64,000 nucleotides of DNA from Neptuniibacter halophilus (GTDB taxonomy: Bacteria > Pseudomonadota > Gammaproteobacteria > Pseudomonadales > Balneatricaceae): the NCBI RefSeq assembly GCF_030295765.1, contig NZ_AP027292.1, positions 248,001 through 312,000 of the forward strand, written 5' to 3'. The position numbers and the translations under genes were made by a program. Each line of letters starts with the position of its first letter. Positions within the stretch are counted from its first letter, which is position 1. Under the pieces are notes generated by a model. It saw nothing but the letters and a program-made list of their open reading frames with translations. It was not told the DNA's origin and did no database searches. Of this stretch, positions 9,734 to 51,625 are shown in pieces.

Positions 9734-11017
9734 TTAAAAGAACCGGTCACGCATAGAGTAATAAAGCATCCCGGCAACCAGCCCCGGGAAACGCAGTAAG
9801 GTTCCGCCCGGGAACGTTGGCGTCGGCACTTTCGAGAACAGATCAAACTTCTCGGCAGAACCACTGACCGCTTCAGCCATCAGCTTGCCTCCCAGTGTCG
9901 CCAGCGCAACACCATGCCCGGAGTAGCCCTGTGCCACAAACAGATTCTCCTCAACGCGGTCGAAATACGGCATCCGGTTGAGCGTAATCGCCAGCGTTCC
10001 GCCCCAACCGTAGTCAATACGCAGATCTTTAAGCTCAGGGTAAAACTCAAGCATATACTTGCGCACAAAACTGCCGATATCGCTCGGGAACTTAGTGGTG
10101 TAGTTCTCACCGCCCCCCCAGAGCAGACGGTTATCACCGGACAATTTGAAGTAGTTAATAACGAAACGGGAATCAGCAATCGCCAGGTCATCGCGGTTTA
10201 TTTTGCGGCACAGTGCTTCATCCAGCGGTTCTGTAGCCAGAATAAAGTTATTGATCGGCATGATCTTACCGGCAATACGCGGCTCCAGCTTACCCAGATA
10301 ACCATTACAGGCCAGCAGAATGTAGTCAGCCCGCACCTCACCCTCTGCAGTTTTTACCCGGGCACCCGCACCGGCGTGGTACTCCGTTACGCGACTGTTT
10401 TCGTAGATTTTGACGCCGGCCTTCTCTGCTGCCGCCGCCAGACCCAACGCATAATTCAATGGATGCAGATGCGCCGCTTCAGTCCAGTATTCTCCGGCAT
10501 GGTAACGGTGAGTCCCCAGCATGTCGGCCACCTCAGAGGGCTCTACATACCTGATCGCATCATAGCCAAGCACATTCTGCTTATATTCTACGGATTCCTG
10601 CAGCTCTTTACTGTGTGAAGGTTTGGCAGCAACGTGCATCACGCCCTGCTTCAGGTCACAACTGATCTGATGCCTGTCGATCAGCTCTTTCACCAGATCA
10701 ACCGACTCCAGAGACATCTGCCACAGCGCATCCGCTGCCGGACGGCCCACTTTAGCGATCATCTCTTCATGGCCCATATTATGACCCTGACAGACCTGAC
10801 CACCATTGCGGCCGGATGCACCCCAGCCCACCTTCTCAGCTTCCAGCAGAGAAACCGAATAGCCTTTTTCTGCCAGATGCAATGCGGCAGACAAGCCGGT
10901 AAAACCGGCACCGATCACACAGATATCGGTCCGTACCTCACCCTGCAGAGAAGGATAATCCTTTTTTGCGTTTGCAGAGTCCGCGTAATAAGAGGACTCG
11001 TACCCTTTCAAACTCAT
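9734..11017 (-). CDS. puuB: FAD-dependent oxidoreductase, gamma-glutamylputrescine oxidoreductase type
   Basis: 427 residues (E. coli PuuB 426). DAO-family flavoenzyme oxidising gamma-glutamylputrescine to the aldehyde with release of ammonia and peroxide. The dinucleotide-binding motif is ICVIGAGFTGLSAALHLAEKG (about residues 31-51), with LEAEKVGWGASGRNGG next and YSGHGVALATLGGKLM near the end. The ATG at 11017 is preceded by GGAGAAAAAGG; upstream in-frame starts are unlikely. It is divergent from a gamma-glutamylpolyamine synthetase. Related enzymes act on other amines, so the exact substrate is inferred. Confidence 0.85.
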   Translation of the reverse strand: MSLKGYESSYYADSANAKKDYPSLQGEVRTDICVIGAGFTGLSAALHLAEKGYSVSLLEAEKVGWGASGRNGGQVCQGHNMGHEEMIAKVGRPAADALWQMSLESVDLVKELIDRHQISCDLKQGVMHVAAKPSHSKELQESVEYKQNVLGYDAIRYVEPSEVADMLGTHRYHAGEYWTEAAHLHPLNYALGLAAAAEKAGVKIYENSRVTEYHAGAGARVKTAEGEVRADYILLACNGYLGKLEPRIAGKIMPINNFILATEPLDEALCRKINRDDLAIADSRFVINYFKLSGDNRLLWGGGENYTTKFPSDIGSFVRKYMLEFYPELKDLRIDYGWGGTLAITLNRMPYFDRVEENLFVAQGYSGHGVALATLGGKLMAEAVSGSAEKFDLFSKVPTPTFPGGTLLRFPGLVAGMLYYSMRDRFF

Positions 11018-15385: not shown

Positions 15386-16903
15386 TTAGTCGATCTTATT
15401 GCACAGGTTGGAAGACTCATTGCTGATCACCTGACCCTGCTCACCTTTGGCAGCGTCGTTACGCGCTTCCTGCAGACGGTTAAGGTAGTTCTCATCGATA
15501 TCACCGGCCACATACTCACCGTCAAACACGCAGGTATCAAACGCCTGAATATTGCTGTTGCCTTCGCTCACAGCATCTTTGAGATCCTGCAGGTCCTGAT
15601 AGATCATCCAGTCACAGCCGATCTCTTTGCCCACCTCTTCATCGGTACGACCGTGTGCGATCAGCTCTTCCGATGAAGGCATGTCGATACCGTAAACGTT
15701 CGGGTACTTAACCGCCGGTGCGGCAGAAGCAAAGTAAACTTTCTTCGCCCCGACATCACGTGCCATCTGTACGATCTGGCTGGAGGTAGTACCGCGGACG
15801 ATGGAATCATCTACCAGCATGACAACCTTGTCTTTGAACTCCATGCCGATCGGGTTGAGCTTGCGGCGAACCGACTTTTTACGCTGAGTCTGCCCCGGCA
15901 TGATGAAAGTACGCCCGATATAACGGTTTTTGATAAACCCTTCACGGAACGTCACACCGAGCTCCCGCGCCATCTCCATCGCAGAGGTACGGCTGGTATC
16001 AGGAATCGGGATAATCACATCAATATCATGGTCCGGGCGTTCGCGCCGCACTTTGTCGGCCAGCTTTTTACCCATACGCATACGCGAGATATGCACGTTA
16101 ACGTCATCAATGATGGAGTCCGGGCGCGCCAGATAAACGTATTCAAACAGACAAGGAGCCAACTGTGTATTATCTGCACACTGCTGAGTCGAAATATTGC
16201 CTTCCATATCGATATAGATCGCTTCACCCGGCTCAATATCACGTACCCGCTCAAAGCCGGAGATATCCAGTGCCACGCTCTCAGAAGCCACCATATACTC
16301 GGTGCCCTGTTCGGTTTCACGCTTACCGTAAGTCAGCGGACGAATGCCGTTCGGATCGCGGAACGCCAGCATGCCGTAACCGGTGATCAGCGCGACCGCA
16401 GCGTAGCCGCCTTTACAGCGCTCATGTACGCGACGCACCGCTTCAAACATATCTTCTGCCTGAGGCTGCAGCTTACCCTGACGCTGTAACTCGTGGGCAA
16501 ATACGTTGAGCAGTACTTCAGAGTCGGAAGTGGTGTTGATATGGCGCAGGTCAGCACGGAACATCTTCTCTGCCAGCTCTTCAGCGTTGGTCAGATTGCC
16601 GTTATGGGCCAGCGCAATACCGTAAGGTGAGTTAACGTAGAAAGGCTGTGCCTCCGCGGAGCTTGAGCTGCCTGCGGTCGGGTAACGGACGTGACCGATA
16701 CCCACGTTGCCCAGCAGGCGTTTCATATGACGGGTACGAAACACCTCATTGACCAGACCGTTATCCTTTCTCAGGAAGAAGCGATTGCCTTCACAGGTCA
16801 CCATACCAGCAGCATCCTGGCCACGGTGCTGAAGTACAGTCAGCGCATCAAAAATAGTCTGGTTTACATAAGATTTGGCTACGATGCCAACAATGCCGCA
16901 CAT
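15386..16903 (-). CDS. purF: Amidophosphoribosyltransferase
   Basis: 505 residues. First committed step of purine synthesis: PRPP plus glutamine to phosphoribosylamine. The N-terminal glutaminase domain begins MCGIVGIV, so Cys2 becomes the catalytic N-terminus; [11 protein letters not shown] and SDSEVLLN are class II amidotransferase motifs. The C-terminal PRTase domain carries [20 protein letters not shown] (PRPP loop). GAGGTGA precedes the ATG. In the cvpA-purF-metZ order. Confidence 0.97.
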
Positions 16904-42723: not shown

Positions 42724-43686
42724 TTATTTAGACAGGTAGTCCCCGCCTGCGCCCTGATTGGCTGCCAGTACGTAGAGGTATTCCAGTGCCAGCGTAGCGC
42801 CTGCCAGAGAGGTAATATCGGAGTTATCGTAGGCCGGTGCCACTTCAACCACATCCATACCGATCAGGTTCAGACCTTTCATACCACGAATCACTTTCAG
42901 CGCAGTATCGATGCTCATGCCTGCAGAAACCGGGGTACCTGTACCCGGAGCAAACGCCGGATCCAGACCGTCGATATCGAAGCTGACATAAACTTTCTTA
43001 TCGGCCACACGTTTGCGGATACGCTCCAGCGTAGCTTCCGGACCGTTGCCATTCACCCAGGCCGCATCCAGTACTTCAAATGGGTGACCTTCTGTATCGT
43101 AAGCGGTACGGATACCGATCTGCAGAGAGTGCTCAGTGTCGATCAGACCTTCATTGACCGCATGATGGAACAGCGTACCGTGGTCATACTTAGTGCCACC
43201 GGAATAGGTATCGGTGTGTGCATCAAAGTGGATCACCGCAATCGGGCCATGCTTTTTCGCGTAAGCACGCAGAATCGGCAGGGTAATAAAGTGATCACCA
43301 CCGAAGGTCAGCGCGGATTTGTCCGCTTCCATAATCTTGCTGATATGCGCTTCCAGATTATCTACCAGCGTCTGCGGCTCACCATGCTTGAAGTAAACGT
43401 TACCTGCATCTTCTACGTTCAGGTGATCATCCAGAGCAAAATTCCACGGCCAGCGCGCGCCTTCCCATGACAGGTTGGCAGAAGCTGAACGGATCCCTTC
43501 AGGTCCGAAGCGAGCACCCGGGCGGCCGGAAGTGGACATATCGTAAGGCACGCCGCTGACAATGACTTCCGCATCACTCGTCTGCAGATCCCGTAGCTGA
43601 GGAAACTGCATAAAAGTCATACCCAGTGCGCCGTACAGGGGAACATCCGCATTTGCCACTGTTACTTGTTGTTCTTTATCACTCAC
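42724..43686 (-). CDS. Agmatinase-family ureohydrolase (agmatinase or guanidinobutyrase)
   Basis: 320 residues. Binuclear manganese hydrolase releasing urea from agmatine (giving putrescine) or 4-guanidinobutyrate (giving GABA). Metal ligands in FGGDHFITLP (His), IHFDAHTDTY and SFDIDGLDPAFAPGTGTP. Start GTG at 43686 with GAGGTGA five nt upstream; a GTG at 43695 is less well placed. The divergent LysR gene resembles the gbuR-gbuA layout of Pseudomonas aeruginosa, which favours guanidinobutyrase, while speD and polyamine genes in the window favour agmatinase. Sequence alone does not settle it. Confidence 0.88.
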   Translation of the reverse strand: MSDKEQQVTVANADVPLYGALGMTFMQFPQLRDLQTSDAEVIVSGVPYDMSTSGRPGARFGPEGIRSASANLSWEGARWPWNFALDDHLNVEDAGNVYFKHGEPQTLVDNLEAHISKIMEADKSALTFGGDHFITLPILRAYAKKHGPIAVIHFDAHTDTYSGGTKYDHGTLFHHAVNEGLIDTEHSLQIGIRTAYDTEGHPFEVLDAAWVNGNGPEATLERIRKRVADKKVYVSFDIDGLDPAFAPGTGTPVSAGMSIDTALKVIRGMKGLNLIGMDVVEVAPAYDNSDITSLAGATLALEYLYVLAANQGAGGDYLSK

Positions 43687-49362: not shown

Positions 49363-50004
49363 TCAGGCCCTGTGAGTCAGCAGCAAACTGCTGAAATAGA
49401 TCATGACACTGCCGGATAAACGCTGCACCCAACGGCCTGCTCTGCCCTCTCCGGCACGGGCACGAATCCGGTCAATGGCCAGAGTCACGCCGAAAAACCA
49501 CAACGCGATCAGCACCGCATGAATGGCCACCAGAACAAATGCGCTGGCATAGCCCGGCGTTGAAAAATCGAGAAACTGCGGAAAAGCTGCCAGATAAAAC
49601 ATCGACACTTTCGGGTTAAGCAACTGGGTAAGAAAACCTTCGACAAAGCTTCCCCCCAACCCTCTGGCTTGTGGCTTTTTCATACTGGCCGGCAAGCGCT
49701 CCCGGGCAGCAACGTCAGCAGCACGAAACGAGGCGAAGATTGCACGGGCACCAATATAGAAAAGGTAAGCGGCACCGAGCAACTTAATCAGCAGAAACAG
49801 TTCTGCCGACTGCAACAGCAGCGCTGACAAGCCAAAGATAGAAAATGCACCATGACAGAAGGTTGCACTGAACAATCCGGCGATATTGGCGAAAGCCGGT
49901 GCGCGTCCGCCAACCGAAGCGGTCTTGACGATCAGGACACCATTGGGACCCGGTGACATCACCAATAACAATGCCACCACAGAAAAAGTCAGAAGCTCCT
50001 GCAT
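49363..50004 (-). CDS. LysE/RhtB family exporter
   Basis: 213 residues, about six membrane segments. LLVMSPGPNGVLIVKTASVGG (about 13-33) and GFLTQLLNPKVSMFYLAAFPQF are LysE family signatures; members export amino acids or small metabolites. The ATG at 50004 with GGAGAGGG is the start; the open frame continues to 50130 but that part covers a terminator and is not expected to be translated. The substrate is unknown. Confidence 0.9.
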   Translation of the reverse strand: MQELLTFSVVALLLVMSPGPNGVLIVKTASVGGRAPAFANIAGLFSATFCHGAFSIFGLSALLLQSAELFLLIKLLGAAYLFYIGARAIFASFRAADVAARERLPASMKKPQARGLGGSFVEGFLTQLLNPKVSMFYLAAFPQFLDFSTPGYASAFVLVAIHAVLIALWFFGVTLAIDRIRARAGEGRAGRWVQRLSGSVMIYFSSLLLTHRA

Positions 50005-50068
50005 CACCCTCTCCACACCGTTAATGAGTCGGATCGCAATTCTACCACAACAGGTGTTTACTCCGGCC

Positions 50069-50101
50069 AAAAAAAAAACCGGAGCCCCTGAGGGTCCGGT
50101 T
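50069..50101 (-). terminator. Intrinsic terminator of candidate sRNA A
   Basis: AACCGGA (50077-50083) pairs with TCCGGTT (50095-50101), with an inner CCC/GGG pairing around TGA. On the minus strand the stem is followed by a run of T (A 50069-50078). It ends about 65 bp before the lysE start. Confidence 0.88.
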
Positions 50102-50263
50102 AAGCAATGTGCTTCAATGACAAGAGCCATGTGCTTGAATACCTGTAAGGGAGTATTCAGATTGCGCCTGCGGAGGCACGGCGCGACACATACACACGAT
50201 GCAACTATCAGAAGTGCATGGCGGCCGAGCTAGTGAGGGGAGCCTGCCGCCTGACGTGTTGGA
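50069..50263 (-). ncRNA. Candidate Fur-regulated small RNA A (RyhB/PrrF-like)
   Basis: About 195 nt from a predicted start near 50263 to the terminator at 50069. It has no convincing open frame. Close to the 3' end the transcript reads GCACATTGCTTAACCGG; CACATTGCTT equals the pairing core of E. coli RyhB as I recall it. The promoter has a Fur-box-like element. A second unit with the same plan lies 300 bp upstream. Alternatives: a regulated leader of lysE, or chance. Confidence 0.55.
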
Positions 50264-50269
50264 AACTAT

Positions 50270-50298
50270 ATTATACGAATGATAATGATTTGCAATAA
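50270..50298 (-). promoter_or_regulatory. Promoter with Fur-box-like element for sRNA A
   Basis: Minus strand: -10 TATAAT (50270-50275), weak -35 TTATTG 17 nt before it, and GCAAATCATTATCATTC (50278-50294) between and over them, close to the Fur consensus of GATAAT repeats. AT-rich sequence upstream resembles the B promoter. Confidence 0.6.
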
Positions 50299-50422
50299 TA
50301 TTTATAAAATTATTTGTAATTATTTCCTCCCCTGTCTGTTCTTACCCTGTAAAGCGCTGAGCACCACAGAGGATATTTCACTGAATAGACAGGATTGATC
50401 TGCTCAGGGGGCCAACGGAAAT

Positions 50423-50451
50423 AAAAAAGCCGGATCAGATGATCCGGCTTT
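50423..50451 (-). terminator. Intrinsic terminator of candidate sRNA B
   Basis: AAAGCCGGATC (50426-50436), AGAT loop, GATCCGGCTTT (50441-50451); A-run 50423-50428 gives a T-tract on the minus strand. No called gene ends here, so it marks an unannotated minus-strand transcript. The stretch 50302-50422 shows nothing else. Confidence 0.88.
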
Positions 50452-50607
50452 AGGGTGAACCGAACAGGTGAGGGTCCGGTAATGATACCGGGGTTCGAGG
50501 GGGAAACCCGGTATCCCGGTGCCAGCCTCCAGTGAGCAGTGAAGGTGGCACCCATTTTCGGCAATGTTAGTGAGGTGAGGTCGTCCATTGCCGATCACTT
50601 ATGAGCG
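50423..50607 (-). ncRNA. Candidate Fur-regulated small RNA B (RyhB/PrrF-like)
   Basis: About 185 nt between a strong promoter and a strong terminator. It contains CTCACTAACATTGCCG (ACATTGC shared with A and with RyhB) and ACCGGACCCTCA, a 12-mer also present in A (plus-strand 50469-50480 and 50089-50100). A frame starting at 50588 (MDDLTSLTLPKMG) runs through the terminator and has no ribosome site, so a non-coding RNA is preferred; a short peptide is not excluded. Confidence 0.55.
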
Positions 50608-50613
50608 AGTACG

Positions 50614-50642
50614 ATAATATTGATATTGAGAATGATTTGCAA
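50614..50642. promoter_or_regulatory. Promoter with Fur box for sRNA B, also upstream of the DMT permease
   Basis: Minus strand: TTGCAA (50637-50642), 17-nt spacer, TATTAT (50614-50619), a good sigma-70 match. The spacer holds GCAAATCATTCTCAATATC, about 13 of 19 matches to the Fur consensus by eye. On the plus strand TATAAA near 50656 could be the -10 of the DMT gene, so Fur might govern both directions. Confidence 0.6.
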
Positions 50643-50725
50643 CATCATTTTTATAAAAATATTCACATTTCCCTGATTCCCCTGAATAAGGTAACTTAGC
50701 GCCAATTTTTGCTGGCGGGGTTCCC

Positions 50726-51625
50726 ATGCATTCCAAGAAAATACAATCCGATCTGATTCTGCTGCTGGTCGCCGCGATCTGGGGCTTCGCTTTTGTTGCC
50801 CAACGTCTGGGCATGGAGTCTCTCGGGCCTTTTGGCTTTAACGCCTTCCGCTTTATGCTGGGCGCCCTGTCACTGCTGCCACTGTTACTGCTGTTTAAAG
50901 CCAGCCCGGAACACTGCAATAAAAGCCTGCTTAAGAGCGGCGTGATTGCTGGCTCAGTTCTGTTTGCAGGTGCCTCGCTGCAACAGGCCGGCCTGCTCTA
51001 CACCACCGCAGGTAATGCCGGTTTTATCACCGGTCTGTACATTATACTGGTACCGATTCTCGGATTAGCCGTGGGACAGCGCACCATTATCAACACCTGG
51101 ATCGGTGGACTGCTGGCTGTACTGGGGCTCTACTTGCTGAGCTTTCAGGATCTCGGCGCGGTCAACTTTGGTGACATTCTCGAGCTGCTGGGTGCCGCCT
51201 GCTGGGCAGCCCATGTGCTGCTGATTGGCAAACTTGCCCCCAAGCTGGACAACCTGCGACTAGCCATTACCCAGTTTGCTGTCTGCGCCATGCTCAGTGG
51301 CATCGTTGCGCTGTTTATTGAAGCCGACAGCTTTAACCTTGAAAATGCTGTCAGCTCCTGGGCGCCAATTGCGTATGCAGGTCTGATCTCCGTGGGGATC
51401 GCTTATACGCTGCAGATTGTTGCCCAGAAACATGCACCTCCGGCCCATGCAGCAATTATCATGAGTCTGGAAGCCGTCGCCGCTGCACTCGGTGGCTGGT
51501 GGATGCTGAATGAGCAGTTCAGCACCGCCGGTTTGATCGGTTGCGGGCTGATGCTGCTCGGCATGCTGATCTCACAATTGCCAGCTTTGATAAAACGGGA
51601 AAAACAGATTGCACAAGTTGAATAA
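50726..51625 (+). CDS. DMT superfamily (EamA) permease
   Basis: 299 residues, ten membrane segments in two EamA repeats (about 8-140 and 150-290). LLLVAAIWGFAFVAQRLGME at the start and AAIIMSLEAVAAALGGWWML in the second repeat are typical. Exports or imports a small metabolite, unknown. Its 3' end overlaps the COG0523 GTPase gene by 17 bp, implying coupled expression and perhaps a shared metal- or stress-related role. A Fur-like box lies about 85 bp upstream. Confidence 0.9.
   Translation: MHSKKIQSDLILLLVAAIWGFAFVAQRLGMESLGPFGFNAFRFMLGALSLLPLLLLFKASPEHCNKSLLKSGVIAGSVLFAGASLQQAGLLYTTAGNAGFITGLYIILVPILGLAVGQRTIINTWIGGLLAVLGLYLLSFQDLGAVNFGDILELLGAACWAAHVLLIGKLAPKLDNLRLAITQFAVCAMLSGIVALFIEADSFNLENAVSSWAPIAYAGLISVGIAYTLQIVAQKHAPPAHAAIIMSLEAVAAALGGWWMLNEQFSTAGLIGCGLMLLGMLISQLPALIKREKQIAQVE

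Follow-up and report, generated by a model that had tools for sequence, protein, structure and literature searches.

In published accounts, RyhB is described as a small RNA (sRNA) with a Fur-type promoter and an intrinsic terminator that acts on sodB and sdh, and PrrF1 and PrrF2 of Pseudomonas as duplicated Fur-regulated sRNAs directed against iron enzymes (PMC7377471, PMC9410917). IsrR of Staphylococcus (PMC9410917) and FsrA of Bacillus (PMC12871923) are described as Fur-controlled sRNAs with C-rich unpaired stretches, the targets of FsrA including sdhC and leuABCD (PMC12871923, PMC9410917). BrrF of Burkholderia (PMC7377471) and HrrF of Haemophilus (PMC4144887) are lineage-specific, iron-repressed analogues of RyhB; BrrF affects sodB and sdhC, is found downstream of hemP and has an end formed without use of a terminator hairpin (PMC7377471).

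The locus described here lies in a 64-kb stretch of DNA (the window) and consists of two units in tandem, each of which reads as a structured transcript that starts from a promoter with a Fur-like box and ends at an intrinsic terminator (Table 1). Our main reading, to which we assign a probability of about 0.8, is that the segment 50040-50720 holds two tandem Fur-repressed sRNA genes on the minus strand, both belonging to one family outside Rfam and predicted to spare iron by pairing with start regions. The observations behind it concern the anatomy of the units, their conserved structure, their distribution, and the complementarity and co-variation of seed and target. The coordinates given in the initial annotation, 50423-50642, do cover unit B but omit the sister unit at 50295-50069.

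Table 1. Features of the tandem sRNA locus and its flanks, in window coordinates.
Feature	Position	Strand	Remarks
EamA-type transporter gene	50726-51625	+	flanks both sRNA units
Unit B	50642-50423	minus	candidate sRNA gene, whole unit
Unit B promoter, TTGCAA-17-TATTAT, sigma-70-like	50614..50642	-	overlaps Fur-box-like sequence; kept in congeners and other genera
Unit B predicted sRNA, ~184 nt	50423..50606	-	start inferred from -10 box; fold and covariation
Unit B 5' seed GCUCAUAAGUG	50596..50606	-	complement of CACTTATGAGC over sodB start codon
Unit B hairpin 1, CU-rich loop ACGACCUCAC	50560..50592	-	loop invariant in 9 sequences; unpaired probability 0.96
Unit B hairpin 2 loop, GCUCAC	50532..50537	-	invariant in 9 sequences
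Unit B hairpin 3 loop region CCCCUCGA	50495..50502	-	invariant in 9 sequences
Unit B hairpin 4 loop, CUCAC	50468..50472	-	invariant in 9 sequences
Unit B intrinsic terminator, perfect 11-bp hairpin and T-tract	50426..50451	-	pattern scan
Unit A	50295-50069	minus	second candidate sRNA gene, tandem with unit B
Unit A promoter and Fur-box-like sequence	50268..50295	-	repeat of unit B promoter; exact -10 uncertain
Unit A predicted sRNA, ~190 nt	50069..50259	-	ends inferred; tandem with unit B in congeners
Unit A first-hairpin loop CCCCUCAC	50233..50240	-	invariant in 9 sequences; unpaired probability 1.00
Unit A core GGCUCUUGUCAUUGAAG	50112..50128	-	first 9 nt complement ACAAGAGCC before sdhC start
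Unit A intrinsic terminator hairpin and T-tract	50069..50101	-	sequence, fold, and unit end in comparison
LysE-type gene	49366-50004	-	other flank of both sRNA units

In the mechanism that we propose, iron-loaded Fur would cover both promoters when iron is plentiful; at low iron this repression would be lifted and both RNAs would accumulate, anneal to the translation-start regions of transcripts coding for iron-using proteins and keep ribosomes off them, thereby saving iron. The 5' end of unit B would lie over the sodB start codon while its four CU-rich loops would mask G-rich ribosome-binding sites, leuC being a candidate, and the core of unit A, GGCUCUUGU, would pair immediately before the sdhC start. 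Transcription, Fur control, pairing inside the cell, the consequences of such pairing and any need for Hfq are all part of the proposal.

The units can be viewed as putative functional analogues of RyhB and PrrF that are not detectably homologous to either. They resemble RyhB in promoter type, in terminator and, as predicted here, in acting on sodB and sdh, but they lack an Rfam match to it, the ACATTGC motif falls in a stem, and the pairing parts differ. The duplicated arrangement and the presumed action on iron enzymes recall PrrF1 and PrrF2; again, however, there is no Rfam match, and units A and B differ from each other in most of the transcript and in their modules. IsrR and FsrA are Gram-positive systems, and besides its C-rich loops unit B has a 5' seed for sodB; the likeness to them is one of description, and general Rfam scans gave nothing above gathering scores. 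Iron repression, which is predicted for the units, would be shared with BrrF and HrrF, but units A and B are separate tandem genes with their own terminators, unlike BrrF.

The initial annotation had suggested checking for RyhB, which we take to be Rfam RF00057, or PrrF. Neither gave a match at gathering score in the 64-kb window or in eight related loci, neither was matched at 49990-50760 with E values up to 10, and a RyhB or PrrF homologue was rejected for want of an Rfam match. The heptamer ACATTGC, which had been put forward as part of the RyhB pairing core, is present, but it forms the 3' stem arm of hairpin 1 and differs in five of the nine aligned sequences; being paired and variable, it does not carry the argument. 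The unit sequences had no match in a plasmid collection, and in the literature searched, whose coverage leaves out most subscription journals, the family is undescribed in titles or abstract openings.

We consider it very probable that unit B is a genuine sRNA gene. The sigma-70-like promoter and the perfect 11-bp terminator stem with its T-tract are both present as first reported, and on their own such sites are weak evidence, since the pattern scans gave five promoter-like sites against 1.6 expected (sd 1.3) and two terminator-like sites against 1.8 expected. The unit rises above chance because congeners have kept its promoter, its 5' end, its hairpins and its terminator, which is the outcome that the earlier proposal of an sRNA had called for. 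The 184-nt transcript has a predicted folding energy of -82.7 kcal/mol (z -7.46), none of 200 shuffled sequences being equally stable, and the z value ranges from -6.7 to -10.1 across nine unit B sequences. The consensus of these nine consists of four hairpins and the terminator, and 95.0% of its cells pair. Compensatory, two-sided changes were found at 27 of 52 pairs; this was matched by none of 500 shuffles, in which the relatedness of the sequences was not preserved, and was approached by no slid version, a comparison biased in favour of the consensus because the structure was derived from the same alignment. Such changes affect 12 of the 15 pairs in the stem of hairpin 2, and in the terminator all ten stem pairs are kept in the nine sequences, with two-sided changes in one. 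The conserved C-rich loops have predicted unpaired probabilities of 0.67 to 0.99. The 5' seed is only about half unpaired (mean probability 0.51 in the fold of the window's genome).

Base pairing argues strongly for sodB, which encodes Fe superoxide dismutase, as a target of unit B. The seed is identical in nine of ten congeners, with a single change, a mismatch, in G010, and it is perfectly complementary to the sequence across the sodB start codon. We compared it with 403 translation starts, taken with a crude gene finder from the window and 386 kb of genome in which the sodB, sdhC and acnB stretches were deliberately included; sodB ranked first, with 11 contiguous pairs against nine for the runner-up. 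The 12 nt upstream of the sodB start are identical in ten sRNA-bearing congeners, and the 20 nt preceding them average 0.44 identity. The sRNA-less congener G005 has aaggtgagactATGAGC at this site, one base shorter.

The same relation can be followed into other genera. The sequence ttacttATGAGC stands at sodB in both sRNA-bearing g3 genomes and in none of five sRNA-less ones, and tacttATGAGC is found there in all six g16 genomes with an intact seed GCUCGUAAGU and in none of the six with clearly altered seeds (G037, G049, G096, G097, G098 and G104; G105 was left out of this count). Counting G-U pairs, seed and sodB match over 16 contiguous pairs in G106 and 14 in G116. Over 34 genomes the cognate seed-site score was 8.5, compared with a permuted mean of 7.57 (sd 0.18), and none of 5000 permutations scored as high, in a test that ignores shared ancestry. 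There are exceptions: in G105 the sodB site is kept and the seed is shortened, G044 has the site and no seed, and G022, G025, G102 and G103 hold a complementary site with no sRNA detected. Seven g8/g9 genomes (G017, G018, G031, G032, G055, G056 and G148) have sRNAs and no long sodB match. These exceptions aside, seed and sodB site appear to vary together across genera, and the iron superoxide dismutase guessed as a target at the outset is borne out by rank and co-variation alike.

Unit A is related to unit B chiefly through its promoter, the two promoters forming a 30-nt repeat that is 80% identical; beyond it the transcripts align poorly and most of their length differs. The unit A fold has a z value of -3.24 (50258-50063). 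Its first hairpin is conserved and support elsewhere is weaker, with two-sided changes at eight of 39 pairs; its terminator is absent from the list returned by the pattern scan. The 9-mer of the core, with a mean unpaired probability of 0.45 in the predicted fold, is complementary to ACAAGAGCC, the 9 nt directly before the GTG start of sdhC. This site was found in all nine sRNA-bearing congeners parsed and in all seven g8/g9 genomes parsed (G056 left out). It is also present in three genomes that yielded no sRNA, G005, G022 and G025; G012 and G014, which yielded none either, read ctagagcc at the site, and g12 has another sequence. With a 38-nt core segment sdhC ranked 15th of the 403 starts. 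We nevertheless favour it because most core-bearing units share just the 9-mer. The complementarity gives moderate grounds for pairing between the unit A core and the sdhC start region, in line with the Sdh target that had been guessed.

Other targets were sought with less success. No conserved site was evident at acnA on inspection by eye, so the aconitase pairing once suggested was not recovered there. The start of an AcnD-like gene, a label that rests on gene length and not on annotation, reads ATGACAAG in seven of the eight sRNA-bearing congeners that have the gene (ATGACTG in G005) and matches CUUGUCAU of the core; this class had no match in the window's genome. The 15-nt complement of the core is not enriched genome-wide (109 sites, 113 for the reversed control), and none of 30 loci inspected for a new target of long complementarity was convincing.

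The C-rich loops could mask ribosome-binding sites, for which leuC is a weak candidate: between its ribosome site and loop 1 there are six to 11 bp in nine congeners, eight in the window's genome, and six in G005. Among the sampled starts the best loop-1 energy belongs to an arginase-family gene at 43686 (minus strand), whose start region holds a perfect 10-nt complement, and the gene at 16903, presumably PurF, has a 9-bp match to loop 1 of unit B. These two matches would suit an alternative in which the units are a real iron-responsive sRNA pair whose main targets are not sodB and sdhC, the C-rich loops working on many ribosome-binding sites instead. In its favour, the loops do not vary and are predicted to be mostly unpaired, and nearly all units read carry a C-rich loop, including units that have no sodB seed. 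We nonetheless consider this alternative improbable, because sodB heads the 403 starts and its site changes along with the seed.

Control by Fur is the part of the main reading that depends on the promoters. Using a Fur consensus, four 14/19 matches were found in the 64-kb window, of which two overlap the unit B promoter, one overlaps that of unit A and one is at 10948; the Fur-box-like sequence first noticed inside the unit B promoter is among them. Over 39 units the boxes, scored against a Fur consensus, match 12 to 16 of 19 positions with a mean of 14, and nine of the 39 score 12, the same as many AT-rich background stretches. The moderate scores here, and those members that are no better than background, leave some room for a regulator other than Fur, with the RNAs answering another signal. 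We regard this as very unlikely given boxes of up to 16/19 in other genera and predicted targets that are iron enzymes. The central claim of the initial annotation, a Fur-type small RNA, is supported at the level of sequence by the conserved promoter, structure and terminator and by the lack of a conserved peptide.

That the locus instead encodes a small protein from the ATG at 50588 has hardly any likelihood: an open frame of 92 aa is present in the window's genome, but among ten congeners (the start being GTG in three) seven have a stop codon 11 to 34 aa into the frame and in the other three it continues past the end of the unit, at 52 to 55 aa; the peptide sequences differ, and it is the stem positions that covary, so that the peptide was ruled out and the earlier remark that there is no convincing gene holds.

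The two units are complete and in the same order in nine of the 11 genomes of the window's genus, its own included. In G007 unit B is truncated at the end of its contig, with an A-like match on another one; neither unit was found in G005. A DNA search matched 25 of 96 genomes, some of the matches being terminator or promoter alone. The unit B model, R1, matched 17 of 116 genomes of the bacterial family, including the nine from which it was built, and through it we reached units of g16 and g3 in which the 5' end GCUCGUAAGUG, a C-rich loop and the core stand in one RNA. A further model, R3, comprising promoter, 5' end and first hairpin and built from 31 units, matched 34 of the 116 genomes in five of 16 genera; 22 of these were sources of the model and 12 were new to it, and in several newly matched genomes the modules are present as in known units. 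G101 and G109 have five R3 matches apiece.

The core differs in extent between groups. Tandem units in g8 and g9 combine a C-rich loop with the core GGCUCUUGUCAUUGAAG, the first unit of G018 having no core that we could find; the g3 core reads GGCUCUUAUC, a sequence carried by G027 and G116; in six of seven weak g16 matches it is reduced to about GGCUCUUGU, the seventh, G105, reading GGCUCUGU; and in two g12 genomes the relative found is shorter and has GGUUCUUGUCAUU. Across the order, the core pattern matched six of 390 genomes, four of them in the window's genus (its own included), and the other two matches, G327 and G013, bear no family resemblance in the sequence printed.

Some of these loci have features of their own. 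The first unit of G043 (at 1519 of locus L012) is B-like with an intact sodB seed; its 3' part has given way to 14 copies of CCGCTTA, its core and terminator were not found, and it is perhaps a decaying copy. In G018 (L014, ~1892-2215) the space between two sRNA units holds six exact copies, spaced 61 nt apart, of 19 nt from a CRISPR-like repeat. Two Rfam group II intron matches lie near the tandem units of G044 (L031, 573-859, minus strand). Ahead of the usual pair in G010, a third B-like unit stands at 1304-1457 of L005, where an assembly gap (N from 412 to 1331) obscures part of it.

Within the window's genus the 5' seed is confined to unit B, which lacks the core, and the core to unit A, which lacks such a seed. 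Since related genera hold all modules in one RNA, the two genes of this genus appear to have divided the modules between them, and duplication followed by division is the simplest reading, with the direction of the split presumed. On balance we lean towards a modular, non-Rfam, Fur-controlled sRNA family, with a sodB seed, C-rich loops directed at ribosome-binding sites and an sdhC core, in this marine gammaproteobacterial family; in the window's genus an all-in-one ancestor would have given rise, by duplication and splitting, to tandem genes that share out its targets, and across genera seed and site would have changed or been lost together.

If the main reading is true, iron sparing of the RyhB kind would be carried out in another gammaproteobacterial lineage by RNAs that have no detectable relation to RyhB, with sodB again a target and sdh probably too. 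The many genomes allow loss of the seed and loss of the target site to be tracked side by side, and since one multi-target RNA has seemingly been split in two, the evolution of sRNA target sets becomes testable. The family would then preserve, as a natural record, the way in which a single regulatory RNA with several targets was shared out between two genes.
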